Assembly: GCA_964017235.1 (NCBI GenBank)
Contig: OZ024936.1
Span: forward strand, 90,866,537 to 90,930,536
DNA from: Sabellastarte sp. h YS-2021
Lineage: Eukaryota; Annelida; Polychaeta; Sabellida; Sabellidae
DNA length: 64,000 nt
Reading direction: 5' to 3'
Position numbers and translations under genes: made by a program. The notes under the pieces were generated by a model, which had not been told where the DNA came from, did not search any database, and worked only from the letters and a program-made list of their open reading frames with translations. Positions 17,954-57,721 of this stretch are shown here, piece after piece. How positions within the stretch are numbered: the stretch's first letter is position 1; every line of letters begins with the position of its first letter.

Positions 17954-18038
17954 TCAAGTAGAAATGGAGTTTTGTTCCAGAATGTTTAGTGTTATAATTT
18001 TTTTAAAGATTGGGACTTGATTATTTTCCTTTCATCGG

Positions 18039-18878: not shown

Positions 18879-18993
18879 CAAGAAATACTGTAACTCTGTA
18901 CAAATACTATGCTGGCTTTTACATGAAACATATAACTTGGTATTAATCTTGAACCGTAGCTTATAGGCTCTGGTTAAAACAAATTAGAATGTA

Positions 18994-20378: not shown

Positions 20379-22648
20379 CATAACCATAAGGAGACAAGGG
20401 TCATCTGGAAGTACTTGTCTTTCATTCAATTAAAAAGATATCAGGTGCAACAATAAATCAATCATTCAATAAAAATGAAATATTGTATTGAAAATTTATT
20501 TCTTGAATCTGGCTACTGTTCTAAAGTGTATATACTAAGACTAAAATATAAGGTTTCAGTCCCTTGTTAACACATTTCTCAAATTATGTGGTGCCAGAAT
20601 TTGGATACTCTTTACTGAAAAGAGATCAGATCTTTCTGGTACAAACTAGCAATTCCTAATAAGCTGCAAGTCAATACATCTTCATAATTAACTTGTTTAT
20701 TTCAAGAAACAAAACAGAAACATTCAGACAGTGTTGGGCAGTGAATATCATTCCTAAAATCATAGTAAAATGTAGTGCAAAAAGTACTAAAGAAAATCAT
20801 ATTCCTACCTTTAGTGAAACTGAAGTATGCATTTTGTCTCTCAATCGACTTCTTGGTGACTACAATATCAAAAGCGTTTTTGCATAGGTATATATCTAAC
20901 TGGTACGGACAATATTATTAAAATTATAGGTAATTTTACAGAAAAATATTATAATTGACTTTTTAGTTGGTCAATCTTTCATTCACTTTTGATTTTGTAC
21001 AAAACAGAATGATAAAATAGCTATATATACACTGTTTTAGTATAGCATTATCATATGAAGACTAGGGTCATCTGGAAGTACTTGTTTTTCATTCAATTAA
21101 AAATATATCAGGCAAAAATGATAAATTAATGAATCATTAAAAAAATTGATGTATTATATTGAAAATTGGTTTCTTAAAGGCAGGTGATGTTCCAAAATGT
21201 ATATACTTAGACTTAAATACAATGTATCAGTCCCTTGTTAACACATTTCTCAAATTATAAGCTACCATAATTTGAATACTGTTTTCTGAACTTCATGAAA
21301 GTAAACATATTTTTAAAATCTGTTATTGTAACTTTTTAGAGTTTAAATGTAATACAGTTTCATTCAAACACAAATTAGCAATCACTAATAAGTTGTGCAT
21401 CAATATATATCCAAAATTAACTTGTTTATTTCACAAAACAAAATAAAAAGAATCAAATAGTTTTCTGTCATGAACATTATTCCTAAAAATTAGATGTAAA
21501 AATGTACCAAAGATAATCAATATCCTACCTTTAATGAAATCAAAGGATTCATGTTATCTCTAAATCTTCCTTTTGGCGACTACAATATCAAAAGTGTTTT
21601 TGTATAGTACAGATATAACTGATGTGGATACAATTATTAATATTACCCACCAAAATAGGTAATTTTTACAGACAAAATATCCTAATTGACTTTTCAGTTG
21701 GTCAATATTTCAGTCACTTTGACTGTATACAAAACAAAAATGCTAAAATAGCTATATATACAATGTTTTGGTATAGCATAACCATATTCTAATCTAAATC
21801 TAATATACTACTTTGCAGGCTCAATATCTTTGACACAAAGGGGAACTCCATTCACTAGTTAACAAAAATTGTTAATCATAAAGAGAATCAAGTAGCGGTC
21901 AAGGGTTAGTGATCCAGAGTTATGAGTGTTACCAGAGGGAAGTTGACTAAGTTTGGAAATGAGTTAGAGAGGTGGAATTTAAGGAGTTCCCTAAATGATG
22001 TAACAGATGGGCTAGTTCTTATTTGGAAGGGAAAAGAGTTCCCCAAAGAACTGGGGCATAGTGACAGAAAGAATTACAAAAATGTTTGATTGATTTATTT
22101 AGGATGTCTATGGTCAAAAGTTGGGGTATGAAGGAACCTAAGTGTAAAGGTGCTTCTTGTGTTTTTGGAAGAGGTGTAGGGGTGAATTAATTCTCCTAGA
22201 TAATCTTGTTGATCTTGGATGAGAATTTTGTATGTAAACAGGCCTATTTTAAATTGCACCCTGTATCATTTCAGGTGAGGGTTAACGTGTGTGAATTTTG
22301 GGGAACGGGTGACAACCCTGCAGAGTGAGTTTTCGACCTGCTGCAATCTCCTTAACTCAAAATCATTGAGTGTTTATTTATTTGGGGTTTTACGTCGCTT
22401 TCAACACTGTACAGGTCATATCACGATGGGTAGTTGGAAGGGCAGAGGAAACCAGTACATATAGTTTGCTAGGGTTGTGTACTGTAAACTGGCAACTAAC
22501 GGCAAGTAACTATCAGCTTTCCCACTTAAGGCCATGATGGGGATCAAACCCTGGCCTCAGAGGTGGGAGGCGAGAGTGTTAATACTCTGCCACCGTGGTC
22601 CCCCAAAATCATTGAGTGATATAAACAGAGAATTGAAATGTTCCAATT
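20379..22648. repeat. Array unit 1 (2,270 bp, alpha-like, with SINE)
   Basis: Unit enlarged by the SINE at 22373-22604 plus its 14-bp duplication. The A part reads aactggtacggac (alpha signature). B still has cttcatgaaagtaaacat, an older variant shared with the right edge of the array. Confidence 0.9.
22373..22604 (-). mobile_element. SINE copied with its array unit (unit 1)
   Basis: Same site, orientation and duplication (aaaatcattgagtg at 22359-22372 and 22605-22618) as the SINE at 20103. It was inherited by unit duplication and is not an independent insertion. Confidence 0.95.
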
Positions 22649-24669
22649 CATAACCATAAGGAGACAAGGGTCATCTGGAAGTACTTGTCTTTCATTCAAT
22701 TAAAAAGATATCAGGTGCAACAATAAATCAATCATTCAATAAAAATGAAATATTGTATTGAAAATTTATTTCTTGAATCCGGCTACTGTTCTAAAATGTA
22801 TATACTTAGACTAAAATATAAGGTGTCAGTCCCTTATTAACACATCTCTCAAATTATGTGGTGCCAGAATTTGGATACTTTTTACTGAAAAGAGATCAGA
22901 TCTCTCTGGTACAAACTAGCAATTCCTAATAAGCTGCAAATCAATACATCTTCATAATTAACTTGTTTATTTCAAGAAACAAAACAGAAACATTCATACA
23001 GTGTTGGGCCGTGAATATTATTCCTAAAATCATAGTAAAATGTAGTGCAAAAAGTACTAAAGAAAATCATATTCCTACCTTTAATGAAACTGAAGTATGC
23101 ATTTTGTCTCTCGATCGACTTCTTGGCGACTACAATATCAAAAGCGTTTTTGCATAGGTATATATCTAACTGGTACGGACAATATTATTAAAATTATAGG
23201 TAATTTTACAGAAAAATATTACAAGTGACTTTTTAGTTGGTCAATCTTTCATTCACTTTTGATATTGTACAAAACAGAATGATAAAATAGCTATATATAC
23301 ACTGTTTTAGTATAGCAGTATCATATGAAGACTAGGGTCATCTGGAAGTACTTGTTTTTCATTCAATTAAAAATATATCAGGCGAAAATGGTAAATTAAT
23401 GAATCATTAAAAAAATTGATGTATTATATTGAAAATTGGTTTCTTATAGCCAGGTGATGTTCCAAAATGTATATACTTAGACTTAAATACAATGTATCAG
23501 TCCCTTGTTAACACATTTCTCAAATTATAAGCTACCATAATTTGAATACTGTTCTCTGAACTTCATGAAAATAAACATATTTTTAAAATCTGTTATTATA
23601 ACTTTTTAGAGTTTAAGTGTAATACAGTTTCATTCAAACACAAATTAGCAATCACTAATAAGTTATGCATCAATATATATCCAAAATTAACTTGTTTATT
23701 TCACAAAACAAAATAAAAAGAATCAAATAGTTTTCTGTCATGAACATTATTCCTAAAAATTAGATGTAAAACTGTACCAAAGATAATCAATATCCTACCT
23801 TTAATGAAACCAAAGGATTCGTGTTATCTCTAAATCTTTCTTTTGGCGACTACAATATCAAAAGTGTTTTTATTTAGTACATATATAACTAAAGTGGACA
23901 CAATTATCAATATTACCCACCAAAATATGAAAATTTTACAGACAAAAAACCATAATTGACATTTCAGTTGGTCAATATTTCAGTCTCTTTGACTGTATAC
24001 AAAACAAAAATGCTAAAATAGCTATATATACAATGTTTTGGTATAGCATAACCATATTCTAATCTAAATCTAATATACTACTTTGCAGGCTCAATATCTT
24101 TGACACAAAGGGGAACTCCATGCACTAGTTAACAAAAATTGTTAATCATAAAGAGAATCAAGTAGCGGTCAAGGGTCAGTGATCCAGAGTTATGAGTGTT
24201 ACCAGAGGGAAGTTGACTAAGTTGGAAATGAGTTAAAGAGGTGGGATTTAAGGAGTTTACTAAATGATGTAACAGATGGGCTAGTTCTTATTTGGAAGGG
24301 AAAGGAGTTCCCCGAAGAACTGGGGCATAGTGACTGAAAGAATTACAAAAATGTTTGATTTATTTAGGATGTCTATGGTCAAAAGTTGGGGTATGAAGGA
24401 ACCTAAGTTTAAAGGTGCTTCTCCTTGTGTTTTAGAAGAGGTGTAGGGATGAATTAATTCTCCTAGGTAGTCTTGTTGATCTTGGATGAGAATTTTGTAT
24501 GTAAAGAGGCCTATTTTAAATCGCACCCTGTATCATTTCAGGTGAGGGTTAATGTATGTGAATTTTGGGGAACGGGTGACAACCCTGCAGAGTGAGTTTT
24601 AGACCTGCTGCAATCTCCTTAACTCAAAATCATTGAGTGATATAAACAGAGAATTGAAATATTCCAATT
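22649..24669. repeat. Array unit 2 (2,021 bp, alpha)
   Basis: Alpha signatures: aactggtacggac in A, aatatgaaaattttacag in B. The LINE part has a 4-bp loss (gtttgatttattt instead of gtttgattgattt) that is also found in unit 4. Confidence 0.9.
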
Positions 24670-26689
24670 CATAGCCATAAGGAGACAAGGATCATCTGGA
24701 AGTACTTGTGTTTCATTCAATTAAAAAGATATCAGGTGCAACAATAAATCAATCTTTCAATAAAATGAATATTGTATTGAAAATTTATTTCTTGAATCCG
24801 GCTACTGTTCTAAAATGTATATACTTAGACTAAAATATAAGGTGTCAGTCCTGTGTTAACACATTTCTCAAATTATGTGGTGCCAGAATTTGGATACTCT
24901 TTACTGAAAAGAGATCAGATCTTTCTGGTACAAACTAGCAATCAATTCCTAATAAGCTGCGAGTCAATACATCTTCATAATTAACTTGTTTATTTCAAGA
25001 AACAAAACAGAAACATTCAGACAGTGTTGGGCCGTGAATATTATTCCTAAAATCATAGTAAAATGTAGTGCAAAAAGTACTAATGAAAATCATATTCCTA
25101 CCTTTAATGAAACCGAAGTATGCATTTTGTCTCTCGATCGACTTCTTGGCGACTACAATATCAAAAGCGTTTTTGCATAGGTATATATCTAACTGGTACG
25201 GACAATATTATTAAAATTATAGGTAATTTTACAGAAAAATATTATAATTGACGTTTTAGTTTGTCAATCTTTCATTCACTTTTGATTTTGTACAAAACAG
25301 AATGATAAAATAGCTATATATACACTGTTTTAGTATAGCATTATCATATGAAGACTAGGGTCATCTGGAAGTACTTGTTTTTCATTCAATTAAAAATATA
25401 TCAGGCGAAAATGGTAAATTAATGAATCATTAAAAAAATTGATGTATTATATTGAAAATTGGTTTCTTATAGCCAGGTGATGTTCCAAAATGTATATACT
25501 TAGACTTAAATACAATGTATCAGTCCCTTGTTAACATATTTCTCTAATTATAAGCTACCATAATTTGAATACTGTTCTCTGAACTTCATGAAAATAAATA
25601 TATTTTTAAAATCTGTTATTATAACTTTTTAGAGTTTAAATGTAATACAGTTTCATTCCAACACAAATTAGCAATCACTAATAAGTTATGCATCAATATA
25701 TATCCAAAATTAACTTGTTTATTTCACAAAACAAAATAAAAAGAATCAAATAGTTTTCTGTCATGAACATTATTCCTAAAAATTAGATGTAAAACTGTAC
25801 CAAAGATAAGCAATATCCTACCTTTAATGAAACCGAAGGATTCATGTTATCTCTAAATCTTCCTTTTGGCGACTACAATATCAAAAGTGTTTTTATTTAG
25901 TACATATATAACTGATGTGGACACAATTATCAATATTACCCACCAAAATATGAAAATTTTACAGACAAAAAACCATAATCGACATTTCAGTTGGTCAATA
26001 TTTCAGTCTCTTTGACTGTATACAAAACAAAAATGCTAAAATAGCTATATATACAATGTTTTGGTATAGCATAACCATATTCTAATCTAAATCTAATATA
26101 CTACTTTGCAGGCTCAATATCTTTGACACAAAGGGGAACTCCATGCACTAGTTGACAAAAATTGTTTATCATAAAGAGAATCAAGTAGCGGTCAAGGGTC
26201 AGGGATCCAGAGTTATGAGTGTTACCAGAGGGAAGTTGACTAAGTTTGGAAATGAGTTAAAGAGGTGGGATTTAAGGAGTTTACTAAATGATGTAACAGA
26301 TGGGCTAGTTCTTATTTGGAAGGGAAAGGAGTTCCTGGGGCATAGTGACTGAAAGAATTACAAAAATCTTTGATTGATTTATTTAGGATGTCTATGGTCA
26401 AAAGTTGGGGTATGAAGGAACCTAAGTTTAAAGGTGCTTCTCCTTGTGTTTTTAGAAGAGGTGTAGGGATAAATTAATTCTCCTAGGTAGTCTTGTTGAT
26501 CTTGGATGAGAATTTTGTATGTAAAGAGGCCTATTTTAAATTGTACCCTGTATCATTTCAGGTGAGGGTTAATGTATGTGAATTTTGGGGAACGGGTGAC
26601 AACCCTGCAGAGTGAGTTTTGGACCTGCTGCAATCTCCTTAACTCAAAATCATTGAGTGATATAAACAGAGAATTGAAATATTCCAATT
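24670..26689. repeat. Array unit 3 (2,020 bp, alpha)
   Basis: First half of the duplicated alpha-beta dimer. The LINE part has a 9-bp deletion (ggagttcctggggc instead of ggagttccccgaagaactgggg), shared only with unit 5. Confidence 0.9.
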
Positions 26690-28705
26690 CATAGCCATAA
26701 TGAGACAAGGATCATCTGGAAGTACTTGTGTTTCATTCAATTAAAAAGATATCAGGTGCAACAATAAATCAATCTTTCAATAAAATGTATATTGTATTGA
26801 AAATTTATTTCTTGAATCCGGCTACTGTTCTAAAATGTATATACTTAGACTAAAATATAAGGTGTCAGTCCCTTGTTAACACATTTCTCAAATTATGTGG
26901 TGCCAGAATTTGGATACTCTTTACTGAAAAGAGATCAGATCTTTCTGGTACAAACTAGCAATTCCTAATAAGCTGCGAGTCAATACATCTTCATAATTAA
27001 CTTGTTTATTTCAAGAAACAAAACAGAAACATTCAGACAGTGTTGGGTCGTGAATATTATTCCTAAAATCATAGTAAAATGTAGTGCAAAAAGTACTAAA
27101 GAAAATCATTCCTACCTTTAATGAAACTGAAGTATGCATTTTGTCTCTCGATCGACTTCTTGGCGACTACAATATCAAAAGCGTTTTTGCATAGATATAT
27201 ATCTAACTGGCGCGGACAAAATTATTAAAATTGTAAGAAATTTTATAGAAAAATATTATATTGACTTTTTAGTTGGTCAATCTTTCATTCACTTTTGCTT
27301 TTGTACAAAACAGAATGATAAAATAGCTATATATACACTGTTTTAGTATAGCATTATCATATGAAGACTAGGGTCATCTGGAAGTACTTGTTTTTCATTC
27401 AATTAAAATATATCAGGCGAAAATGATAAATGAATGAATCATTAAAAAAATTGATGTATTATATTGAAAATTGGTTTCTTATAGCCAGGTGATGTTCCAA
27501 AATGTATATACTTAGACTTAAATACAATGTATCAGCCCCTTGTTAACACATTTCTCAAACTATAAGCCACCATAATTTGAATACTGTTCTCTGAACTTCA
27601 TGAAAATAAACATATTTTTAAAATATGTTATTATAACTTTTTAGAGTTTAAATGTAATACAGTTTCATTCCAACACAAGTTAGCAATCACTAATAAGTTA
27701 TACATCAATATATATCCAAAATTAACTTGTTTATTTCAAGAAACAAAATAAAAAGAATCAAATAGTTTCCTGTCATGAACATTATTCCTAAAAATTAGAT
27801 GTAAAAATGTACCAAAGATAATCAATATCCTACCTTTAATGAAACCGAAGGATTCATGTTATCTCTAAATCTTCCTTTTGGCGACTACAATATCAAAAGT
27901 GTTTTTATTTAGTACATATATAACTGATGTGGACACAATTATCAATATTACCCACCAAAATAGGTAAATTTTACAGACAAAATATCATAATTGACTTTTC
28001 AGTTGGTCAATATTTCAGTCACTTTGACTGTATACAAAACAAAAATGCTAAAATAGCTATATATACAATGTTTTGGTATAGCATAACCATATTCTAATCT
28101 AAATCTAATATTCTACTTTGCAGGCTCAATATCTTTGACACAAAGGGGAACTCTGTGCACTAGTTAACAAAAATTGTTAATCATAAAGAGAATCAAGTAG
28201 CGGTCAAGAGTCAGTGATCCAGAGTTATGAGTGTTACCAGAGGGAAGCTGACCAAGTTTGGAAATGAGTTATAGAGGTGGGATTTAAGGAGTTTACTAAA
28301 TGATGTAACAGATGGGCTAGTTCTTATTTGGAAGGGAAAGGAGTTCCCCGAAGAACTGGGGCATAGTGACTGAAAGAATTACAAAAATGTTTGATTTATT
28401 TAGGATGTCTATGGTCAAAAGTTGGGGTATGAAGGAACCTAAGTTTAAAGGTGCTTCTTCTTGTGTTTTAGAAGAGGTGTAGGGATGAATTAATTCTCCT
28501 AGGTAGTCTTGTTGATCTTGGATGAGAATTTTGTATGTAAAGAGGCCTATTTTAAATCGCACCCTGTATCATTTCAGGTGAGGGTTAATGTATGTGAATT
28601 TTGGGGAACGGGTGACAACCCTGCAGAGTGAGTTTTGGACCTGCTGCAATCTCCTTAACTCAAAATCATTGAGTGATATAAACAGAGAATTGAAATATTC
28701 CAATT
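26690..28705. repeat. Array unit 4 (2,016 bp, beta)
   Basis: Beta signatures: aactggcgcggacaaaa and tgtaagaaattttatag in A. The LINE part carries gcggtcaagagtcag and gaagctgaccaag, shared with units 10 and 12. Confidence 0.9.
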
Positions 28706-30725
28706 CATAGCCATAAGGAGACAAGGTTCATCTGGAAGTACTTGTGTTTCATTCAATTAAAAAGATATCAGGTGCAACAATAAATCAATCTTTCAATAAA
28801 ATGAATATTGTATTGAAAATTTATTTCTTGAATCCGGCTACTGTTCTAAAATGTATATACTTAGACTAAAATATAAGGTGTCAGTCCCGTGTTAACACAT
28901 TTCTCAAATTATGTGGTGCCAGAATTTGGATACTCTTTACTGAAAAGAGATCAGATCTTTCTGGTACAAACTAGCAATCAATTCCTAATAAGCTGCGAGT
29001 CAATACATCTTCATAATTAACTTGTTTATTTCAAGAAACAAAACAGAAACATTCAGACAGTGTTGGGCCGTGAATATTATTCCTAAAATCATAGTAAAAT
29101 GTAGTGCAAAAAGTACTAATGAAAATCATATTCCTACCTTTAATGAAACCGAAGTATGCATTTTGTCTCTCGATCGACTTCTTGGCGACTACAATATCAA
29201 AAGCGTTTTTGCATAGGTATATATCTAACTGGTACGGACAATATTATTAAAATTATAGGTAATTTTACAGAAAAATATTATAATTGACGTTTTAGTTTGT
29301 CAATCTTTCATTCACTTTTGATTTTGTACAAAACAGAATGATAAAATAGCTATATATACACTGTTTTAGTATAGCATTATCATATGAAGACTAGGGTCAT
29401 CTGGAAGTACTTGTTTTTCATTCAATTAAAAATATATCAGGCGAAAATGGTAAATTAATGAATCATTAAAACAATTGATGTATTATATTGAAAATTGGTT
29501 TCTTATAGCCAGGTGATGTTCCAAAATGTATATACTTAGACTTAAATACAATGTATCAGTCCCTTGTTAACATATTTCTCTAATTATAAGCTACCATAAT
29601 TTGAATACTGTTCTCTGAACTTCATGAAAATAAATATAGTTTTAAAATCTGTTATTATAACTTTTTAGAGTTTAAATGTAATACAGTTTCATTCCAACAC
29701 AAATTAGCAATCACTAATAAGTTATGCATCAATATATATCCAAAATTAACTTGTTTATTTCACAAAACAAAATAAAAAGAATCAAATAGTTTTCTGTCAT
29801 GAACATTATTCCTAAAAATTAGATGTAAAACTGTACCAAAGATAAGCAATATCCTACCTTTAATGAAACCGAAGGATTCATGTTATCTCTAAATCTTCCT
29901 TTTGGCGACTACAATATCAAAAGTGTTTTTATTTAGTACATATATAACTGATGTGGACACAATTATCAATATTACCCACCAAAATATGAAAATTTTACAG
30001 ACAAAAAACCATAATCGACATTTCAGTTGGTCAATATTTCAGTCTCTTTGACTGTATACAAAACAAAAATGCTAAAATAGCTATATATACAATGTTTTGG
30101 TATAGCATAACCATATTCTAATCTAAATCTAATATACTACTTTGCAGGCTCAATATCTTTGACACAAAGGGGAACTCCATGCACTAGTTGACAAAAATTG
30201 TTTATCATAAAGAGAATCAAGTAGCGGTCAAGGGTCAGGGATCCAGAGTTATGAGTGTTACCAGAGGGAAGTTGACTAAGTTTGGAAATGAGTTAAAGAG
30301 GTGGGATTTAAGGAGTTTACTAAATGATGTAACAGATGGGCTAGTTCTTATTTGGAAGGGAAAGGAGTTCCTGGGGCATAGTGACTGAAAGAATTACAAA
30401 AATCTTTGATTGATTTATTTAGGATGTCTATGGTCAAAAGTTGGGGTATGAAGGAACCTAAGTTTAAAGGTGCTTCTCCTTGTGTTTTTAGAAGAGGTGT
30501 AGGGATAAATTAATTCTCCTAGGTAGTCTTGTTGATCTTGGATGAGAATTTTGTATGTAAAGAGGCCTATTTTAAATTGTACCCTGTATCATTTCAGGTG
30601 AGGGTTAATGTATGTGAATTTTGGGGAACGGGTGACAACCCTGCAGAGTGAGTTTTGGACCTGCTGCAATCTCCTTAACTCAAAATCATTGAGTGATATA
30701 AACAGAGAATTGAAATATTCCAATT
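28706..30725. repeat. Array unit 5 (2,020 bp, alpha)
   Basis: Near-identical to unit 3 at an offset of 4,036 bp, including the private 9-bp deletion. Confidence 0.9.
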
Positions 30726-32746
30726 CATAGCCATAATGAGACAAGGATCATCTGGAAGTATTTGTGTTTCATTCAATTAAAAAGATATCAGGTGCAACAA
30801 TAAATCAATCTTTCAATAAAATGTATATTGTATTGAAAATTTATTTCTTGAATCCGGCTACTGTTCTAAAATGTATATACTTAGACTAAAATATAAGGTG
30901 TCAGTCCCTTGTTAACACATTTCTCAAATTATGTGGTGCCAGAATTTGGATACTCTTTACTGAAAAGAGATCAGATCTTTCTGGTACAAACTAGCAATTC
31001 CTAATAAGCTGCGAGTCAATACATCTTCATAATTAACTTGTTTATTTCAAGAAACAAAACAGAAACATTCAGACAGTGTTGGGTCGTGAATATTATTCCT
31101 AAAATCATAGTAAAATGTAGTGCAAAAAGTACTAAAGAAAATCATTCCTACCTTTAATGAAACTGAAGTATGCATTTTGTCTCTCGATCGACTTCTTGGC
31201 GACTACAATATCAAAAGCGTTTTTGCATAGATATATATCTAACTGGCGCGGACAAAATTATTAAAATTGTAAGAAATTTTATAGAAAAATATTATATTGA
31301 CTTTTTAGTTGGTCAATCTTTCATTCACTTTTGCTTTTGTACAAAACAGAATGATAAAATAGCTATATATACACTGTTTTAGTATAGCATTATCATATGA
31401 AGACTAGGGTCATCTGGAAGTACTTGTTTTTCATTCAATTAAAATATATCAGGCGAAAATGATAAATGAATGAATCATTAAAAAAATTGATGTATTATAT
31501 TGAAAATTGGTTTCTTATAGCCAGGTGATGTTCCAAAATGTATATACTTAGACTTAAATACAATGTATCAGCCCCTTGTTAACACATTTCTCAAACTATA
31601 AGCCACCATAATTTGAATACTGTTCTCTGAACTTCATGAAAATAAACATATTTTTAAAATATGTTATTATAACTTTTTAGAGTTTAAATGTAATACAGTT
31701 TCATTCCAACACAAATTAGCAATCACTAATAAGTTATGCATCAATATATATCCAAAATTAACTTGTTTATTTCACAAAACAAAATAAAAAGAATCAAATA
31801 GTTTCCTGTCATGAACATTATTCGTAAAAATTGGATGTAAAAATGTACCAAAGATAATCAATATCCTACCTTTAATGAAACCGAAGGATTCATGTTATCT
31901 CTAAATCTTCCTTTTGGCAACTACAATATCAAAAGTGTTTTTATTTAGTACATATATAACTGATGTGGACACAATTATCAATATTACCCACCAAAATAGG
32001 TAAATTTTACAGACAAAATATCATAATTGACTTTTCAGTTGGTCAATATTTCAGTCACTTTGACTGTATACAAAACAAAAATGCTAAAATAGCTATATAT
32101 ACAATGTTTTGGTATAGCATAACCATATTCTAATCTAAATCTAATATTCTACTTTGCAGGCTCAATATCTTTGACACAAAGGGGAACTCCGTGCACTAGT
32201 TAACAAAAATTGTTAATCATAAAGAGAATCAAGTAGTGGTCAAAGGTCAGTGATCCAGAGTTATGAGTGTTACCAGATGGAAGTTGACTAAGTTTGGAAA
32301 TGAGTTAAAGAGGTGGGATTTAAGGAGTTTACTAAATGATGTAGCAGATGGGTTAGTTATTATTTGGAAGGGAAAGGAGTTCCCCAAAGAACTGGGGCAT
32401 AGTGACTGAAAGAATTACAGAAATGTTTGATTGATTTATTTAGGATGTCTATGGTCAAAAGTTGGGGTATGAAGGAACCTAAGTTTAAAGGTGCTTCTCC
32501 TTGTGTTTTTAGAAGAGGTGTAGGGGTGCATTAATTCTCCTAGGTAATCTTGTTGATCTTGGATGAGAATTTTGTATGTAAAGAGGCCTATTTTAAATTG
32601 TACCCTGTATCATTTCAGGTGAGGGTTAATGTATGTGAATTTTGGGGAACGGGTGACAACCCTGCAGAGTGAGTTTTGGACCTGCTGCAATCTCCTTAAC
32701 TCAAAATCATTGAGTGATATAAACAGAGAATTGAAATATTCCAATT
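30726..32746. repeat. Array unit 6 (2,021 bp, beta)
   Basis: Its A part matches unit 4 at +4,036. From late B onwards it matches units 7-9 at +2,021, for example attcgtaaaaattggatg. It is therefore the junction between the dimer block and the monomeric expansion. Confidence 0.9.
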
Positions 32747-44880: not shown

Positions 44881-46905
44881 CATAGCCATAAGGAGACAAG
44901 GGTCATCTGGAAGTACTTGTGTTTCATTCAATTAAAAAGATATCAGGTGCAACAATAAATCAATCTTTCAATAAAATGAATATTGTATTGAAAATTTATT
45001 TCTTGAATCCGGCTACTGTTCTAAAATGTATATACTTAGACTAAAATATAAGGTGTCAGTCCCTTGATAACACATTTCTTAAATTATGTGGTACCAGAAT
45101 TTGGATACTCTTTACTGAAAAGAGATCAGATCTTTCTGGTACAAACTAGCAATTCCTAATAAGCTGCGAGTCAATACATCTTCATAATTAACTTGTTTAT
45201 TTCAAGAAACAAAACAGAAACATTCAGACAGTGTTGGGTTGTGGATATTATTCCTAAAATCATAGTAAAATGTAGTGCAAAAAGTACTAAAGAAAATCAT
45301 ATTCCTACCTTTAATGAAACTGAAGTATGCATTTTGTCTCTCGATCGACTTCTTGGCGACTACAATATCAAAAGCATTTTTGCATAGATATATATCTAAC
45401 TGGCGCGGACAAAATTATTAAAATTGTAGGAAATTTTATAGAAAAATATTATAATTGACATTTTAGTTGGTCAATCTTTCATTCACTTTTGATTTTGTAC
45501 AAAACAGAATGATAAAATAGCTATATATACACTGTTTTAGTATAGCATTATCATATGAAGACTAGGGTCGTCTGGAATTACTTGTTTTTCATTCAATTAA
45601 AAATATATCAGGCGAAAATGATAAATTAATGAATCATTAAAAAAATTGATGTATTACATTGAAAATTGGTTTCTTATAGCCAGGTGATGTTCCAAAATGT
45701 ATATACTTAGACTTAAATACAATGTATCAGTCCCTTGTTAACACATTTCTCAAATTATAAGCTACCATAATTTGAATACTGTTCTCTGAACTTCATGAAG
45801 GTAAACATATTTTTAAAATCTGTTATTATAACTTTTTAGGGTTTAAATGTAATACAGTTTAATTCCAACACAAATTAGCAATCACTAATAAGTTATGCAT
45901 CAATATATATCCAAAATTAACTTGTTTATTTCACAAAACAAAATAAAAAGAATCAAATAGTTTTCTGTCATGAACATTATTCCTAAAAATTAGATGTAAA
46001 AATGTACCAAAGATAATCAATATCCTACCTTTAATGAAACCGAAGGATTCATGTTATCTCTAAATCTTCCTTTTGGCGACTACAATATCAAAAGTGTTTT
46101 TATTTAGTACATATATAACTGATGTGGACACAATTATCAATATTACCCACCAAAATAGGTAAATTTTACAGACAAAATATCATAATTGACTTTTCAGTTG
46201 GTCAATATTTCAGTCACTTTGACTGTATACAAAACAAAAATGCTAAAATAGCTATATATACAATGTTTTGGTATAGCATAACCATATTCTAATCTAAATC
46301 TAATATACTACTTTGCAGGCTAAATATCTTTGACTCAAAGGGGAACTCCGTGCACTAGTTAACAAAAATTGTTAATCATAAAGAGAATCAAGTAGTGGTC
46401 AAAGGTCAGTGATCCAGAGTTATGAGTGTTACCAGAGGGAAGTTGACTAAGTTTGGAAATGAGTTAAAGAGGTGGGATTTAAGGAGTTTACTAAATGATG
46501 TAGCAGATGGGTTAGTTATTATTTGGAAGGGAAAGGAGTTCCCCAAAGAACTGGGGCATAGTGACTGAAAGAATTACAGAAATGTTTGATTGATTTATTT
46601 AGGATGTCTATGGTCAAAAGTTGGGGTATGAAGGAACCTAAGTTTAAAGGTGCTTCTCCTTGTGTTTTTAGAAGAGGTGTAGGGGTGAATTAATTCTCCT
46701 AGGTAATCTTGTTGATCTTGGATGAGAATTTTGTATGTAAAGAGGCCTATTTTAAATTGCATCCTGTATCATTTCAGTTGAGGGTTAATGTGTGTGAATT
46801 TTGGGGAACGGGTGACAACCCTGCAGAGTGAGTTTTGGACCTGCTGCAATCTCCTTAACTCAAAATCATTGAGTGATATAAACAGAGAATTGAGATATTC
46901 CAATT
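44881..46905. repeat. Array unit 13 (2,025 bp, beta-like)
   Basis: The LINE part shares gtagtggtcaaaggtcag and agcagatgggttagtt with units 6-9, and its end matches unit 9. Confidence 0.9.
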
Positions 46906-48929
46906 CATAACCATAAGGAGACAAGGGTCATCTGGAAGTACTTGTGTTTCATTCAATTAAAAAGATATCAGGTGCAACAATAAATCAATCATTTAATAAA
47001 AATGAATATTGTATTGAAAATTTATTTCTTGAATCCGGCTACTTTTCTAAAATGTATATACTTAGACTAAAATATAAGGTGTCAGTCCCTTGTTAACACA
47101 TTTCTCAAATTATGTGGTGCCAGAATTTGGATACTCTTTACTGAAAAGAGATCAGATCTTTCTGGTACAAACTTGCAATTCCTAATAAGGTGCAAGTCAA
47201 TACATCTTCATAATGAATTTGTTTGTTTCAAGAAACAAAACAGAAACATTCAGACAGTGTTGGATCGTGAATATTATTCCTAAAATCATAGTAAAATGTA
47301 GTGCAAAAAGTACTAAAGAAAATCATATTCCTACCTTTAATGAAACTGAAGTATGCATTTTGTCTCTCGATCGACTTCTTGGCGACTACAATATCAAAAG
47401 CGTTTTTGCATAGGTATATATCTAACTGACGCCGACAATATTATTAAAATTATAGGCAATTTTACACAAAAATATTATAATTGACTTTTTAGTTGGTCAA
47501 TCTTTCATTCACTTTTGATTTTGTACAAAACAGAATGATAAAATAGCTATATATACACTGTTTTAGTATAGCATTACCATATGAAGACTAGGGTCATCTG
47601 GAAGTACTTGTTTTTCATTCAATTAAAAATATATCAGGCGAAAATGATAAATTAATGAATCATTAAAAAAATTGAGTATTGTATTGAAAATTGGTTTCTT
47701 ATAGCCAGATGATGTTCCAAAATGTATATACTTAGACTTAAATACAATGTATCAGTCCCTTGTTAACACATTTCTAAAATTATAAGCTGCCATAATTTGA
47801 ATACTGTTTTCTGAACTTCATGAAAGTAAACATATTTTTAAAATCTGTTATTATAACTTTTTAGAGTTTAAATGTAATACAGTTTCATTCCAACACAAAT
47901 TAGCAATCACTAAGAAGTTGTGCATCAATATATATATAAAATTAACTTATTTATTTCACAAAACAAAATAAAAAGCATCAAATAGTTTTCTGTCATGAAC
48001 ATTATTCCTCAAAATTTGATGTAAAACTGTACCAAAGATAATCAATATCCTACCTTTAATGAAATCAAAGGATTCATGTTATCTCTAAATCTTCCTTTTG
48101 GCGACTACAATATCAAAAGTGTTTTTATTTAGCACATATATAACTGATGTGGACACAATTATCAATATTACCCACCAAAATAGGTAAATTTTACAGACAA
48201 AATACCATATTTGACATTTCAGTTGGTCAATATTTCAATCTCTTTGACTGTATACAAAACAAAAATGCTAAAATAGCTATATATACAATGTTTTGGTGTA
48301 GCATAACCATATTCTAATCTAAATCTAATATACTACTTTGCAGGCTCAATATCTTTGACACAAAGGGGAACTCCATGCACTAGTTAACAAAAATTGTTTA
48401 TCATAAAGAGAATCAAGTAGCGGTCAAAGGTCAGTGATCCAGAGTTATGAGTGTTACCAGAGGGAAGTTGACTAAGTTTGGAAAAGAGTTACAGAGCTCG
48501 AATTTAAGGAGTTTCCTAAATGATGTAACAGACGGGCTAGTTCTTACTTGGAAGGGAAAAGAGTTCCCCAAAGAACTGGGGCATAGTGACTGAAAGAATT
48601 ACAAAAATCTTTGATTGATTTATTTAGGATGTCTATGGTCAAAAGTTGGGGTATGAAGGAACGTAAGTTTAAAGGTGCTTGTCCTTGTGTTTTTAGAAAA
48701 GGTGTAAGGGTGAATTAATTCTCCTAGTAATCTGGTTGATCTTGGATGAGAATTTTGTATGTAAAGAGGCCTATTTTAGATTGCGTCCTGTATCATTTCA
48801 GTTGAGGGTTAACGTGTGTGAATTTTGGGGAAGGGGTGAAAACCCTGCAGAGTGAGTTTTGGACCTGCTGCAATCTCCTTAACTCACAATCATTGAGTGA
48901 TATAAACAGAGAATTGAAATATTCCAATT
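46906..48929. repeat. Array unit 14 (2,024 bp, more diverged)
   Basis: Begins like unit 10, then accumulates private changes (aactgacgccgac, atatatataaaattaac). This marks the start of the decaying right flank. Confidence 0.9.
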
Positions 48930-51184
48930 CATAACCATAAGGAGACAAGTGTCATCTGGAAGTACTTGTGTTTCATTCAATTAAAAAGATATCAGGTGCA
49001 ACAATAAATCAATCATTCAATAAAAATGAAATATTGTATTGAAAATTTATTTCTTGAATCTGGCTACTGTTTTAAATGTATATACTTAGACTAAAATATA
49101 AGGTGTCAGTCCCTTGTGAACACATTTCTCAAATTATGTGGTGCCAGAATTTGGATACTCTTTACTGAAAAGAGATCAGGTCTTTCTGGTACAAACTTGC
49201 AATTCCTAATAAGCTGCGAGTCAATACATCTTCATAATGAACTTGTTTATTTCAAGAAACAAAATAGAAACATTCAGACAATGTTGGGTTGTGAATATTA
49301 TTCCTAAAATCATAGCAAAATGTAGTGCAAAAAGTACTAAAGAAAATCATATTCCTACCTTTAATGAAACTGAAGTATGCATTTTGTCTTTAGATCGACT
49401 TCTTGGCGACTACAATATCAAAAGCGTTTTTCCATAGGTATATATCTATCTGATGCGGACAAAATTATTAAAATTATAGGTAATTTTACAGAAAAATATT
49501 ATAATTGACTTTTTAGTTGGTCAATCTTTTATTCACTTTTGATTGTGTACAAAACAGAATCATAAAATAGTTATATACACACTGTTTCAGTATAGCATAA
49601 CCATATGAAGACTAGGGTCATCTGGAAGTACTTGTGTTTCATTCAATTAAAAATATATTAGGCGAAAATGATAAATTAATGAATCATTCAAAAAAATTGA
49701 GGTATTGAAAATTGATTTCTTACAGGCAGGTGCTGTTCCAAAATGTATATACTTAGACTTAAATACAATGTATCAGTCCCTTGTTAAGACATTTCTCAAA
49801 TTATAAGCTACCATAATTTGAATACTGTTGTCTGAATTTCATGAAAGTAAACATATTTTTAAAATCTGTTGTTATAACTTTTTAGAGTTTAAATTTAAAA
49901 GAGTTTCATTCCAACACAAATTAGCAATCACTAACAAATCATGTATCAATATATATCCAAAATTAACTTGTTTATTTCACAAAACAAAATAAAAAGAATC
50001 AAATAGTTTTGTGTCATGAACATTATTCCTAAAAATTCGATGTAAAAATGTACCAAGATAATCAATATCCTACTTTTAATGAATTTTTATTTAGGGTTTT
50101 ACGTCGCTTTCAACACTGTACATTTCATATCACAACGGGTAGTTGGAAGGGCAGAGGAGACCAGTACATAGAGTTCGCTAGGGTTGTGTACTGTAAACTG
50201 CCGACCAACAGCAAGCAACTAACAGTTTTCCCACTTAAGGCCGTGACGGGGATCAAACCCCGGCCCCACAGGTGGGAGGCAAGAGTGTTACCACTCTGCC
50301 ACCGTGGCCCCTTACCTTTAATGAAACCGAAGGATTAATTTTATCTCTAAATCTTCCTTATGGTGACTACAATATCAAAAGTGTTTTTGTATAGTATATA
50401 TATAACTGATGTGGACACAATTATTAATATTACCAACCCAAAAGAGCTAAATTTTACAGACAAAATATCATAATTGACTTTTTATTTGGTCAATATTTCA
50501 GTCACTTTGACTGTATACAAAACAAAAATGCTAAAATAGCTATATATACAATGTTTTAGTATAGCATAACCATATTCTAATCTAAACCTAATATACTACT
50601 TTGCAGGCTCAATAACTTCGACACAAAGGGGAACTCCGTGCACTAGTTAACAAAAATGTTTATCATAAAGAGAATCAAGTTCTGAACAAGGTCAGATTTC
50701 CAGAGTTATTAGTGCGACCAGATGGTAGCTGACTAAGTTTGGAAACTAGAGTTAAAGAGGTGGAAGTTAAGGAGTTTCCTAAATGATGTAACAGATGGGT
50801 TAGTTCTTATGTGGAAGGGAAAAGAGTTCCCCAAAGAATTGGGGCATAGTGACTGAAAGAATTACAAAAATGTTTGATTTATGATCTCTATGGTCAAAAG
50901 TTGCTGTACAAAGGAACCTAAGTTTAAAGGTGCTTATCCTTGTGTTTTTAGAAGAGGTGTAGGGTGAATTAATTCTCCTAGGCAATCTGACTGACCTTGG
51001 ATGAGAACTTTGTATGTAAAGAGGTCTATTTTAAATTGCATCCTGTATCTTTTCAGTTGAGGGTTAAAGTGTCAGAATTTTTAGGAACGGGTGACAACCC
51101 TGCAGAGTGAGTTTTTTATATGCTGCAATCTCCTTAACTCAAAATCATTGAGTGATATAAACAGAGAATTGAAATAGTCCAATT
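48930..51184. repeat. Array unit 15 (2,255 bp, diverged, with SINE)
   Basis: Enlarged by the SINE at 50084-50312. Many private substitutions. Confidence 0.9.
50084..50312 (-). mobile_element. tRNA-derived SINE in monomer B of unit 15
   Basis: Main family, minus orientation. Target duplication tacttttaatgaa (50071-50083) and tacctttaatgaa (50313-50325), 12 of 13 matching. It interrupts the most conserved block of the monomer. Independent of the SINEs in units 0 and 1. Confidence 0.95.
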
Positions 51185-53672
51185 CATAACCATATGGAGA
51201 CAAGGGTCATCTGGAAGTACATGTGTTTCATTCAATTAAAAAGATATCAGGTGCAACATTAAATCAATCATTCAATAAATATGAAATATTGTATTGAAAA
51301 TTTATTTCTTGAATCCGGCTACTATTCCAAAATGTATATACTTAGTCTAAAATATAAGGTGTCAGCCTTTGTTAACACATTTCTCAAATTATGTGATGCC
51401 AGAATTTGGATACTCTTTACTGAAAAGAGATCAGATCTTTCTGGTACAAACTAGCAATTCCTAATAAGCTGTGAATCAATACATCTTCATAATCAACTTG
51501 TTCATTTCAAGAAACAAAATAGAAACATTCAGACAGTGTTGGGTCATGAATATTATTCCTAAAATCATAGTAAAATGAAGTGCAAAAAGTACTAAAGAAA
51601 ATCATATTCCTACCTTTAATGAAACCGAAGTATGCATTTTGTCTCTCCATCGACTTCTTGGAGACTACAATATCAAAAGCATTTTTGTATAGGTACATAT
51701 CTAATTGACACGGACAAAATTATTAAAATTATAGGTAATTTTACAGAAAAGTATTATAATTGACTTTTTAGTTGGTCAATCTTTTATTCACTTTTGATTT
51801 TGTACAAAACAGAATCACAAATAGCTATATACACACTGTTTTAGTATAGCATAACCATATGAAGACTAGGGTCATCTGGAAGTACTTGTGTTTCATTCAA
51901 TTAAAAAGATATCAGGCAAAAATCATAAATTAATGAATCATTCAAAAAAATTGATGTATTGTATTGAAAATTGATTTCTTACAGGCAGTTGCTGTTCCAA
52001 AATGTATATACTTAGACTTAAATACAATGTATCAGTCCCTTGTCAACACATTTCTCAAATTATAAGCTACCATAATTTGAATACTGTTGCCTGAAGTAAA
52101 CATATTTTAAAATCTGTTGTTATAACTTTTTAGAGGTTAAATGTAATACAGTTTCATTCCAACACAAATTAGCAATTACTAATAAGTTTTGCATCAATAT
52201 ATATTCAAAATCAACTTCTTTATTTCACAAAATAAAATAAAAAGAATCAAATAGTTTTCTGTCATGAACATTATTCCTAAAATTTCGCTGCAAAAAAAGT
52301 ACCAAAGATAATCATTATCCTACCTTTAATGAAACCGAAGGATTTATTTTGTCTCTAAATCTTCCTTTTGGGGATTACAATATCAAGTGTTTTTGTATGG
52401 GTACATATGTAGCTGATGTGGACACAATTATTAATATTACCCACCAAAATAGGTGAATTTTACAGACAAAATATTATAATTGACTTTTCAGTTGGTCAAT
52501 ATTTCAGTCACTTTGACTGTATATAAAACAAAAATGATAAAATAGCAATATATACAATGTTTTAGTATAGCGTAACCATATTCTAATTAACACCTTATCT
52601 ACAACTTTGCAAGCTCAATATCTTCGAGACAAAGGGAACTCAGTGCAGTAGTTAACAAAAATTGATTCATAACTAGAATCAAGTGACCATCAAGGTCAAT
52701 GATCAAGAGTGATGAATGTGACCAGAGGGAAGGTGAATAAGTTTGGAAACTACAGTTAAAGACTTGGAATTTAACCATTTTGCCACTATATTTCTAATAT
52801 AAATAGTACTTTTACCCTGAATTTTCAATGCCTTTTTAAATGAAGTGACATTTCTTTGATAGATGTCATATTTGCAGATTACCATGACAAGACACCTGTG
52901 ATCCATATATACTGTGAAACTACACCAATACATCTTCAAACTGGCATATAGTTTTTGGTGTGTTACCATAGCAACAGTAAATTTTCCTTAGCAACCATGC
53001 AAATTCCTATAATTTTAAAGGTTTGAAAGAAAATTGTGAAATAATTTTTATTTTTATTAGATATACAGATTCATGTATAATAAACAACATAATTAGAGAA
53101 TTTATCAAACCTGCAACATAATATAGATACTTTTAGAACAAGAGTGTTTGACTAATTTAGTATTATCATAGTAACAAGAAAATTTCCTTAGCAACGAAAT
53201 ACATTTTAAGCTTCATAATGTTTTCAAACTGAAATTGTGTATTCACTGTAATTGTTATTGCTTATACTAAAATATTTGATAACATATTGCATTATATTTG
53301 ATGACATCAAATTGTAAATTTGATGACTTTTAGGTATGTGTTTAAATAATTTGCACTGGAATAGTAATTTATTTGCTGGGATATAAAGGATGTGTCACTA
53401 AAATGGTTTTAAATCTTTGAAAAAATCTTTACTGTGGATTAGTAAATTGTTTATTTACCTGGATTAAGTGACACAAATGACTTTGGATGTTCAAACAATT
53501 AAGACAGACTATAGTAAAATCATTTAGAACTTTGAATTAAAAATCTTATGGAAATGTTTGGTGGAAGTAATTACTGCAGTTAAGCAATCGTTACAATAAA
53601 AACTGATTTGTGAATTTAGTTCCACAATGCTTGTTTTGCAATCAATCAGTATCTGATTCATTGCACCTCTAA

Positions 53673-55177
53673 CTATTTCCAGAACTCCAATTTTGTGTGC
53701 CAGTCTTTCCAGCAGGTGGAGGATTTCTTAATGCATAAATAGACCTGACAACTGACTGATTCACATTTAAATGCTGTTTTTGAAACTTTTATTGCGGCAG
53801 TAAGGTCAGGATTTGTCTTTCAATATCTCTTGCACCCTTCTCTGACAACAGGAAACTGGTCATGTGCAGGCCGAAGTCTGGGCCTTGAAGCTGCAGACAG
53901 GGAAGGTCTTCCAGGTCTTTGTCTTGATGAAAAACCATCCACCAGCTGATGGGCAACATCTAAGCAGAATGAGCGGAAATCACGCTTGCATTTGTGTGGA
54001 GGATTGTGATCCACAAAGTGTCCTTCAATTATGTATGCGTTAAAGAGAGACCACATCAAGCATTTGTGAAATAAGTGGGTGTACCATTTATATTGTTTCC
54101 TGCTTTTATCCAAGGCTATGAATCTGTCATTCAAATCAAGCAAACTGTTGCAACAATTCCTGTGTTTGCGTAAACACGCCATTCACAATCACCTTTCTTC
54201 ATCTCAGATTTTGATCGCTTCAGGTCTTGTGGAAGGTCATTCCTGGTCACTATCACTGTCCCACAAGTTGCTAAGCCCACTTTTGAAAGGTAATAGGCCA
54301 GTAGAGGACTTGTGTACAATCTGTCAGTGTATATTTCGTACCCCTTGTCAAATAGTGGTTGAGCAAGTTCGATCATAACTCTTGAGCAAAGGCCAAAATG
54401 GGAATCGGCATCCTTTCCAGAGTAGACATTGAAGTTATAATTATATCCATTTGTTGCATCAGCTAATAAGAACACCTTTATCCCAAACATTACTGGCTTG
54501 TCTTTACAGTACTGTTTGAATCCTAATCGGATATGAAATGGAACCATACATTCATCCACACTCACCTGCTGGTGTGGAACATGCTGTACCTGGAACTTTT
54601 GTTGAAGATGCTGGAGTAGGAATCTTATTTTATACAACTTGTCATAATTTACATGTGTTTTTGGCAATGCGTCTTCTTCATTACAGAAGTGCAAATAACA
54701 GGATAGTAGTGTGAATCTATCTCTCTGAAAGACCTTCGTCAAACCAACAGCCTCCATTAGTGGTCACTTCGGAATACTGCTCCACAGTTCTTCAAGTCTG
54801 TCTTTGTACAGAACTTCTATCAGAATTTTGACTCCAACGTAGGCCCTAAGTTCCAGGTCAGTGATATCAAGGGTATTCTCTTTATTTTCATCACATGAAC
54901 ATTTGTAATTACTATTGGTAAAGTCTACAACAGAGTTCACTCGTTGATCATCGAAAAATAAATTGAAGTAATCAACTGCTTTATTGCCTGGGGGATTGGA
55001 CAAGGTTGGTCCTTGTAAAGATAAAGTAAATTGTAAAGAAATGAATTCACTGTTACAGTCTTCTTCATCATAAAGGTTTTCATTCTGTTCCCTACAAAGT
55101 CTGTCTTCATTTGATGTTTCAATTTCATATGTGTAATTGTCATCTAAAATTTCATCGTCCACAGTGTTTGATGCCAT
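53673..55177 (-). pseudogene. piggyBac transposase (DDE_Tnp_1_7 type), inactivated
   Basis: Cuts and pastes the element at TTAA through a DDD active site. Seen, minus strand: ATG at 55177, an acidic N-terminus, LELRAYVGVKILIEVLY, then an in-frame TGA at 54764-54766; QRDRFTLLSCYLHF; SVDECMVPF with catalytic Asp at 54554-54556; a DRLYTSPLLAYYL block with Asp at 54323-54325. Near 54140-54190 a frameshift and a deletion of perhaps 40-50 codons remove the segment before the third Asp. LLDLNDRF keeps that Asp (54135-54137), followed by RKQYKWYTHLFHKC and NAYII. A second in-frame TGA at 53820-53822 falls where a zinc-binding Cys is expected. The Cys-rich tail (AFKCESVSCQVYLC, CWKDWHTK) then continues in frame to a TAG at 53673. 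Clearly a dead copy. Confidence 0.93.
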
Positions 55178-56410
55178 TTTATCTAAAAGTACAAAGGTTA
55201 TTCTGACACATTGAAAAGAACATTAGCCATATATTGATGTAGATGTTTTATTTAAATAAAAAATGAAAGATGAAAAGAATTCAAACAAGCTGTAGAGCAG
55301 TGTGAGATAGAATCACAATCAAATTTCACCTTACAGGTAAATCTGTTTAATTTTTAAATAATTATTTAGAATACTGCATTTCTTTTTGAGCAAATAAATA
55401 CATTGGAATATACAGATATGTGCATTGCAAGCAATTATTAAAATGTAACCCCAAAAATATTGTTCTAACATCTGCTGATAATTAAACTTAGAACGTGTAA
55501 GGCACAATATTAAAACATGCAGGAGGATGTTGTGAACCTTCACCAGTAACAGACAGTAATGGTCTGTAATTATTTTGTTAACAAAACAGACAGAAGGATA
55601 GTGAGGCATCCATAATTTTATCTTCAATGACTTACACATATGCGGAAAGTTTGAATGAAATCATCAATAACTTTTAAGTAATTTTGTTGACAGACAGAAT
55701 GACAAAAAATAACCTAAAATGGGGTAGATAATTTATCAATACAGGATTTTCACTGATTGAAAGCAAAATTATGTAGCATCAGCTTGTTTGAAATTACACT
55801 TCCTATTTCAGTAGACTTTTTCTTGAATTTTACATCCTTGTTAAGTAATACTATGATATTAGTGTATTGAAGAAAATGTGTTATAGTTTTCAAAACAGAA
55901 CAGATTGAAAAACATTTCTTCAGTGAAATACTTCTGCAACCACCATGAGAAAGGCAACACACATGTTTCATTCCCATCATTCAACAAAAACTGGATTACA
56001 ACCAGTCTAGCCTCACACAGGGTGCTACCTAGAAGTCTCATCTTTTCAGAAACTATTGAAGTTTATTAAAACATATTCAGTAATTGCTATTAGGGATGCT
56101 AACACAAGCTTTCAGTTTTTGCTCAGGTTTAAAGTATTTAATAATTGTTCTCTTTATTATATAAAACAACCAGCAGGATATACTAATATCACAACTTACT
56201 TTCACATATTCTTTCAATTATGGAGATAATTCAGTGGTATTGTTTTACGAGTAATAATACAGCCTGCATGGCGAATCAATGAATATAAAGTTTTGACTAC
56301 AACAAAGTTGTTGGCTAGTACTACCCTTTTCTAACCACTCTTAATTTTTCTACTCAGTATGATAAAAAGTCAGAGAAAAAACATATTCATTGAAAGTATG
56401 TGTAATATTT

Positions 56411-56629
56411 CCCTGCATAAATTGGCTGCAGACATAACTTGGCTGCAGACATAACTTGGCCAGGTTATTCACATAGTCCAAACATAGAAACTAATGTTTG
56501 TACAATTGGCAAAACTCATAAGTCTCATTTCAATAGACCATTTAAGATAGCTATTGGCCAATAGATTTCAAGGTATGTTGAGATATAATGGTGGTGGCCA
56601 AGTTATGTCCACTGTCATTTTATGCAGGG
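56411..56629. mobile_element. MITE-like element inside piggyBac (219 bp)
   Basis: The left end ccctgcataaa...gacataacttggc is inverted at the right end as gccaagttatgtcc...ttttatgcaggg, about 34 bases with a few mismatches. The left arm contains a perfect 17-bp tandem duplication, ttggctgcagacataac, at 56422-56438 and 56439-56455. No clear target duplication. It could also be a long palindrome belonging to the piggyBac element itself. Confidence 0.55.
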
Positions 56630-57303
56630 AAGCAGTAACACCTTTAAAAATGTTAGGGATATTTGGGGATACACCCACTTTACCTTAATTGTTAAATAAA
56701 TGAGCATTTAGAAAGCAAAAATTTCTAAAGTCTTCAGAAGCCTGCATGTATACATGGTTTTTCAGTGTAAGCAGCTTTGTGGAGTGTTTTCAATATTTCA
56801 AGATTTTATCCTTATTTTAGGGTTGTAGTAAATTAACATATTTTATATTGAAACTAATCGTAAATTAAACTTCAGATAAGGTTTTAACTTGTTGATATCA
56901 AGTACACAATGTGGGTGGTGTATTAGTGCATATATTGTATGATATATATATCATTAAATTTGTGTTAATGTTGAAAGCAGTGTATTCAAGTTATAACTTA
57001 TATGGCTAAACTTAGATATTTCACTCTATATATTTTCTTTCTTAAAATGATCTGTTTAATTTAGCAGTTTATACAGATTAAATTTCTCTCACAATGTCAA
57101 AAAACTTGTATTTTGCCAATAAAATAAACCTCTGTTTTATACATAGAAGTAAAAGTAGTATCAAATATACCATGCTAGATTGTGTTCTGGAACGTAAAAA
57201 AACAAATTAGTATGTAAAAAGATGTTGTAAATACTTACAAACTGCAGTTTTCAATTCCCATGGAAATACATCCTGTTTTGGTGACATCATGCAGGCTGGA
57301 AAA

Positions 57304-57356
57304 AACGGCCTATCGTGGTGACTGCTAAAAGGCATCATAACGGCCTGTCGTGATGA
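57304..57356. repeat. Subterminal direct repeat at the piggyBac right end
   Basis: aacggcctatcgtggtga (57304-57321) and aacggcctgtcgtgatga (57339-57356) differ at two positions. They lie within 60 bases of the element end, a typical place for transposase-binding repeats. The left end shows no obvious copy. Confidence 0.6.
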
Positions 57357-57365
57357 AATGGTTAA

Positions 57366-57710
57366 GAAGTTTCCTAAATGATGTAATATATGGGCTAGTT
57401 CTTGTTTGGAAGGGAAAAGAGTTCCTCAAAGAACTGGGGCATAGTGACTGAAAGAATTACAAAAATGTTTGATTGATTTATGATCTCTATGGTCAAAATT
57501 TGGGGTATGAAGGAACCTAGGTTAAAAGGTACTTCTCCTTGTGTTTTAGAAGAGGTGTATGGGTGAATTAACTCTGAGATAAGATGGTTGCCTGTGGTTC
57601 AGAATTTTGTATGTAGTGAGGCCTATTTTAAATTGAGTTTTGGACCTGCTGCAATCTCCTTAGCTCAAAATCATTGAGTGATATAAACAGAGAATTGAAA
57701 TAGTCCAATT
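57366..57710 (-). repeat. LINE segment of unit 16 right of piggyBac (short form)
   Basis: Continues the RT C-terminal remnant and ends at caatt, followed by cataaccatat at 57711-57721, as in the array. Confidence 0.85.
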
Positions 57711-57721
57711 CATAACCATAT

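Follow-up and report, generated by a model that had tools for sequence, protein, structure and literature searches.

A probable locus-specific, LINE-bearing macrosatellite in the annelid Sabellastarte sp. h YS-2021 and a proposed history of its growth

We analyse a 64,000-nucleotide stretch (the window) of the genome of the sabellid polychaete Sabellastarte sp. h YS-2021 (assembly GCA_964017235.1, contig OZ024936.1, here C14:90866537-90930536). The dominant structure of the window, as an earlier note on the same DNA had stated, is a tandem array of 2.02-kb units, each carrying the antisense end of a long interspersed nuclear element (LINE). The array is very probably a locus-specific, non-coding macrosatellite that has grown by unequal exchange, with the following history. 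A 0.7-kb monomer would already have been tandem at the locus, as suggested by a LINE-free junction and by diverged monomers. Then one 5'-truncated LINE would have inserted in antisense at a junction from monomer B to monomer A, leaving an 11-bp target-site duplication (exact in unit U15), as indicated by the junctions and by a tree of the LINE copies. From the LINE-bearing unit there would have arisen two forms, a longer one in the flank and a shortened one in the core. Both are present in the sequence, with the order and the mechanism of the change being presumed. Subsequently, unequal crossing-over or gene conversion would have multiplied the core form in the centre of the array and made its copies alike, so as to give the pattern that is observed. 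Meanwhile, the edges, where inserts are seen, would have aged, gathering short interspersed nuclear elements (SINEs), a DNA transposon and a piggyBac element.

The periodicity is evident from the 12-mers shared at an offset of 2,021 bases, which number 7,733, compared with a mean of 1.4 (maximum 152) at offsets 1000-1899 and with 0 at 2,021 bases in one shuffled window. By BLAST and alignment, monomer A starts at regular positions (20392, 22662, 24683 ... 51198), and 15 complete units, U1-U15, stand head to tail on the plus strand at 20392..51197, followed by a 16th, U16, with a split LINE, in agreement with the count of about 16 given before. Each unit begins with monomer A (0.66 kb), continues with monomer B (0.73 kb) and closes with the antisense LINE end (~0.62 kb). 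In U6, taken as representative, these lie at 30739..31399 (+), 31400..32128 (+) and 32129..32759 (−), the last comprising the end of ORF2 (the second open reading frame) and the 3' tail, antisense to the array. Monomers A and B of U6 are 78.7% identical, gaps ignored. The three-part unit of two diverged monomers plus an antisense LINE end is supported. The unit length is 2016-2025 bp in 13 of the 15, the other two, U1 (2270 bp) and U15 (2255 bp), each having a SINE. In U16 (51198..57726, +), monomer A occupies 51198-51861, monomer B 51862-52581 and the LINE 52582-52774 plus 57362-57726, with 4.6 kb of inserted sequence separating its two parts at 52774/57362. The span 20379-57710 proposed earlier does hold the array, but it also takes in 4.6 kb of piggyBac sequence and misses a LINE remnant of the same type that precedes it at 16760-20391.

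The LINE piece is present in all of the 15 complete units and in U16. Its antisense orientation is seen from minus-strand open reading frames in the array and flanks, which by eye read the end of a LINE protein, and from the 3' tail, which stands at the left of the piece as TCTAA repeats in plus-strand reading, as in the dispersed family. The reading frame of one dispersed relative (L008, the dispersed copy that was scanned) holds a reverse transcriptase domain (PF00078, E 3e-12), and three frames from the array flanks, scanned beside it, gave no Pfam match. We take the LINE to be of the RVT_1 kind, and its clade may be L2/CR1-like.

Judging from the sequence, a single LINE insertion that was co-amplified with the unit is most likely, because the LINE copies of the array have a single junction in common and group together in a tree, to the exclusion of 44 dispersed copies. 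At the left junction, the end of monomer B (...ACCATAT; ...AACATAT at the left edge of the array) passes to TCTAAT at one and the same base in 8/8 junctions compared, namely, that of the scrambled left edge, those of U1, U6, U14, U15 and U16 and those of two copies in the right flank. Around the LINE of U15 there is an 11-bp direct repeat, CATAACCATAT, at 50565..50575 and 51185..51195 (both +), which from its sequence is a probable target-site duplication; the right copy reads CATAACCATAA in U1 and U14 and CATAGCCATAA in U6. In the tree of 10 array and 44 dispersed LINE copies, the array clade (SH-aLRT, the approximate likelihood-ratio test, 99.7; bootstrap 100; stem 0.039) splits into a core clade (99.8/100) and a flank clade (100/100). 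This tree is from a trimmed alignment of 44 of the 45 dispersed copies fetched (L071, with a short overlap, is left out), and an earlier tree with 23 of 25 dispersed copies (L044 and L057 left out) agrees, with a support of 0.993. Moreover, at 23 of 529 columns the core and flank LINEs have the same derived base, with 1.8 expected if they were independent, and none of the 44 dispersed copies has more than 7 of the 23. In other columns the core and flank differ from the dispersed copies by different bases (3 columns), or the core only (24) or the flank only (30) differs. It is noted that only dispersed copies with the best scores were sampled (39 of 4,299 and 40 of 4,819 candidates scored), so a closer source copy could be missed.

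Alternatively, it could be supposed that the same LINE lineage inserted twice independently, each time in another monomer but at the same position, giving the long flank form and the short core form separately by a site preference. This would account for the difference of ~0.4 kb between the two forms at the 5' end, for the core form having its own 11-bp direct repeat and for the existence of a B-to-A junction free of LINE. By contrast, the 23 derived bases and the 0.039 stem that are common to core and flank are absent from the 44 best-scoring dispersed copies. Furthermore, the array copies have in common a tail variant found in none of the 25 dispersed copies compared (the tail of U16 departs from it), and the flanks of these 25 copies are unrelated, from which it follows that the LINE has no general site preference. 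We thus consider two independent insertions decidedly unlikely.

The right flank (57727..64000, +) consists of older units, with monomers 82-87% identical to the like monomer of U6 and LINE about 83% identical to the core, and has two LINE-bearing junctions and one chimeric junction. At the latter, 57726/57727, the core-type LINE with its direct repeat runs directly into the interior of a flank-type LINE. We interpret this as the scar of a recombination event, where the young array ends on the right. The monomer-only flanking DNA that the earlier note had described is not found in the window, where the right flank has the LINE in its longer form and no clear B-to-A junction without LINE is seen; the junction 63667/63672 may be an ordinary A-to-B junction. 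Such a LINE-free B-to-A junction does occur 17 kb beyond the window, at C14:90947481-90949369, the only one seen. There, with no LINE between them, an A-like monomer (83.7% identical to A of U6) comes directly after a B-like one (85.0% identical to B of U6). Being diverged, this junction shows the empty site only roughly. On the left, a diverged and scrambled edge (15769..16761, +) contains fragments of monomer together with 0.1 kb of LINE, joined at the same junction, and is followed by the LINE of the unit before U1 (16760..20391, +), broken by a 2.8-kb insert and a SINE.

From this arrangement it might be argued that the LINE insertion itself triggered the amplification, for example by replication stalling or by its homology to thousands of LINE copies. 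If true, the LINE-bearing units would have multiplied to near identity, with the nearby LINE-free monomers being few and diverged. However, the right-flank units also have the LINE and are equally diverged, and just one LINE-free B-to-A junction is seen, so that we regard such a trigger as unlikely.

As for the growth of the array, U7 and U8 are exactly the same, U6 and U7 differ in 2 columns and U3 and U5 in 4. The gap-ignored identity among U1-U14 is 95.3-100%, and that of U15 and U16 to the rest is 92.2-93.2% (U16 being compared without its LINE). Note also that the closest relative switches along single units, which indicates exchange within units. The near-identical centre with diverged edges is an observed pattern, and it is what would be predicted by unequal exchange with homogenisation, the process that Smith's model is said to describe. 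That model is mentioned in PMC8122249.

Several points weigh against the history proposed here. An untrimmed tree failed to group the core and flank LINEs; it was discarded, as the non-homologous flanks were misaligned. The flank LINE copies are ~0.4 kb longer than the core at the LINE 5' side and have an extra piece of ~0.13 kb near the tail, which is lacking in the 5 dispersed copies compared. The core LINE ends exactly at the direct repeat though the flank copies extend ~0.4 kb more, and it is suspicious that a shortening should stop at the target-site duplication; the core right junction could be a sign of independent insertion, a reading that carries less weight given the trimmed tree. 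Two insertions from one unsampled source copy are possible. Divergence also fails to increase steadily outward, the LINE-free outer monomers (83.7 and 85.0%) being as close to U6 as those of the right flank (82-87%). In addition, gene conversion or rolling-circle reinsertion would give, in one assembly, a picture similar to that of unequal crossing-over. Finally, the exact number of units may be wrong, because U6-U9 make up ~8.1 kb of near-identical sequence and the mean read length is ~9.1 kb, as obtained from HiFi data of 129.26 Gb in 14.21 million reads (PMC13234546).

The last point leads to the supposition that the assembly has artificially expanded or collapsed the array, in favour of which are the identity of U7 and U8, the near identity of U6-U9 and reads that average ~9 kb. 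On the other hand, most pairs of units differ by 2-8%, the edge units are marked by SINE, piggyBac and indels, the array grades into aged flanks and the 114 kb of sequence across and around it contain zero N. We consider an artefact of this kind extremely improbable.

The ageing of the edges that is part of this history would have been accompanied by later inserts. A SINE-like repeat of ~230 bp is found at 4513-4766, 15622-15765, 18650-18875, 18992-19247, 20101-20333, 22371-22603 and 50086-50311, and a further copy, with 90% identity, is in a fetched stretch (L007). The insert at 20101..20333 (+), in the unit before U1, has a target-site duplication of at least 14 bp, and that at 22371..22603 (+), in U1, is a second copy of the same insertion; since two adjoining units have the same SINE with one target-site duplication, the units were duplicated after the SINE landed. 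The copy at 50086..50311 (+), in monomer B of U15, is a separate insertion of the same family with a target-site duplication of ~13 bp containing one mismatch. In the LINE of U16 lies a piggyBac-like element (52775..57361, −) between TTAA at 52771-52774 and TTAA at 57362-57365, its transposase region (53820-55222, minus strand) having three open frames, 2/3 of which match PF13843. The 2.8-kb insert in the LINE before U1 (16938-19751) has 17-bp perfect terminal inverted repeats, AGAGTTTTTACATTGTA, and holds two of the SINE-like copies. The SINE of U15, the piggyBac of U16 and the 2.8-kb element on the left are all at the edges of the array.

We now consider the distribution in the genome, of which 1,785.96 Mb in 647 contigs were searched, C14 being the contig that carries the window. 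The published assembly GCA_964017235.1 (wsSabSpea1) has 1,786.39 Mb in 723 scaffolds (PMC13234546), and we conclude that the window is on chromosome 10, at 90.9 of the 99.7 Mb of the main scaffold. A search for the telomere repeat gave matches on C21, C164 and C385 only and is uninformative on the placement of C14. The matches of monomer A (66/66) and of the flank B-type monomer (50/50) are all on C14 at 90882304-90968942, with 22/22 first-look candidates scored for each. A whole unit, in the search that had been proposed as a check, gave 50 matches (39 of 4,299 candidates scored), 13 on C14 and 37 elsewhere, all of these 37 falling within 107-729 of the query, which is the LINE piece. The monomers are thus found only at the C14 locus and the LINE piece is dispersed. 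It should be borne in mind that very common words are passed over in the DNA search, so that a miss does not prove absence, and that the central units of the array itself are not among the whole-unit matches.

By these results the array appears to be a macrosatellite specific to this locus, and not a centromeric family. If it were one array among many of a centromeric or genome-wide satellite, this would fit the tandem arrangement, the AT-richness and the homogenised centre. However, the monomers are on one scaffold only (an enormous family could escape through the skipped words), the array is only about 32 kb, and CENP-B-box-like matches with up to one mismatch number 1, against 1.19 expected by chance. 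There is, in our view, an exceedingly small chance that the array is of this kind.

A functional macrosatellite, an array kept for a role in chromatin or as a transcript, is suggested by the unit size and the single locus, which resemble those of the human macrosatellites DXZ4 and D4Z4 (PMC8122249), and for DXZ4 a role in X inactivation has been suggested (PMC2588610). Against this, the longest run kept in at least 10 of 11 diverse monomers is 19 bases, a length that also marks the 95% point in 1,000 shuffles, so no block is conserved beyond chance. The Rfam scan of the window at the gathering threshold gave no match and the tRNA scan of the window nothing. Only three open reading frames of at least 80 amino acids start in 20379-52600, two in the LINE and one across a SINE. 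The centre of the array is AT-rich (GC about 30.5%), unlike the CpG-rich DXZ4. Such a role therefore seems very unlikely, and as far as the sequence can tell the array would be non-coding, with no role beyond its own recombination.

As regards its class, the array has a tandem unit above about 1 kb, being of 2.02 kb in 15 complete copies, and is confined to one locus, with all monomer matches at C14:90.88-90.97 Mb; the assignment as a macrosatellite rests on this unit size and this confinement in one primary assembly. It is also a composite, transposon-bearing tandem repeat, with LINE copies of one clade in 15 units and U16. It is not a LINE-derived satellite in the strict sense, as neither monomer A nor monomer B has a match off C14, nor a centromeric satellite with arrays on most chromosomes, as the monomers are found on C14 only. 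Any hint of a special class is not supported. Human composite macrosatellites with LINE and other transposon pieces have already been described (PMC2588610). We have here a new sequence in a known kind, the composite, transposon-bearing macrosatellites, and an ordinary repeat of no special class.

The nearest likenesses are the human megasatellites that bear transposable elements, such as the 5.4-kb MER33-containing repeat on 19q13 and the ~6-kb Acro repeat on 4p11, where, as in the worm, long tandem units with LINE, long terminal repeat (LTR) or DNA-transposon pieces are amplified as one; the Acro repeat adjoins satellite blocks (PMC2588610). By contrast, the sequence and the phylum are other, and the Acro probe labels several chromosomes whereas the worm array is at one locus (PMC2588610). 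In the human MaLR 'LTR arrays', LTR6A is inserted in monomer C of each higher-order unit, so that there too a transposon is multiplied with the higher-order unit, and unequal crossing-over was inferred from dot plots; the whole monomer is LTR-derived there (PMC2588610), whereas nothing else like the worm monomer was found in its genome. The composite repeats of ape sex chromosomes, 13 of them new, are likewise tandem composite units found by self dot-plot, a likeness by description only (PMC11168930). DXZ4 and D4Z4 also have a unit of a few kilobases in tandem at one or few loci, with DXZ4 being CpG-rich and the worm array AT-rich without a coding or conserved part (PMC8122249).

In the literature on satellites, LINEs and annelids (titles and abstract openings), no description of the repeat was found among the matches listed, which from so weak a search says little either way; more general literature on composite satellites and their growth yielded the ape comparison and reviews only; nothing was found for Sabellidae together with satellite DNA, and a broader search has no mention of polychaetes among the matches listed, again saying little either way. 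The words 'satellite' and 'centromer' do not occur in the main text of the genome paper (PMC13234546). What the locus offers is a readable record of the birth of a macrosatellite within about 87 kb of one chromosome, spanning founder monomers, a LINE insertion with a probable target-site duplication, older and younger unit forms, a homogenised centre and decaying edges that took up later inserts. It opens no new class, and could be a worked example in Annelida.

Some minor observations may be added. Transposon remains are present in the surroundings of the array. At 11368-11646 of the window there is a DDE_Tnp_4 (PF13359) fragment, presumably Harbinger-like, and the open frame upstream of it at 10518-10991 gave no match in the Pfam scan. 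In a fetched stretch, L015:9106-9429 has a weak phage-integrase-like SAM domain (PF02899, below the cut-off) adjoining a 243-amino-acid frame (L015:8265-8993), which we take to be possibly DIRS-like or another tyrosine-recombinase element. Downstream of the window, a second LINE (L016:9555-9965 and L017:1304-1867, minus strand) matches reverse transcriptase (PF00078, E 6.1e-11) and, weakly and below the cut-off, an endonuclease (PF03372). An open frame of 155 amino acids on the minus strand at 3455-3922 of the window has a caspase recruitment domain (CARD, PF00619, E 1.2e-5) and may derive from a gene of immunity or apoptosis, as an exon or a retrocopy. Finally, we note that the mitochondrial contig C647 (15,345 bases; L013 and L014) has genes on both strands, with cox1, cox2, cox3 and nad3 on one strand and nad1, nad2, nad4, nad5, nad6, cob and atp6 on the other, as named by eye from the translations, a layout that to our knowledge is unusual for an annelid.

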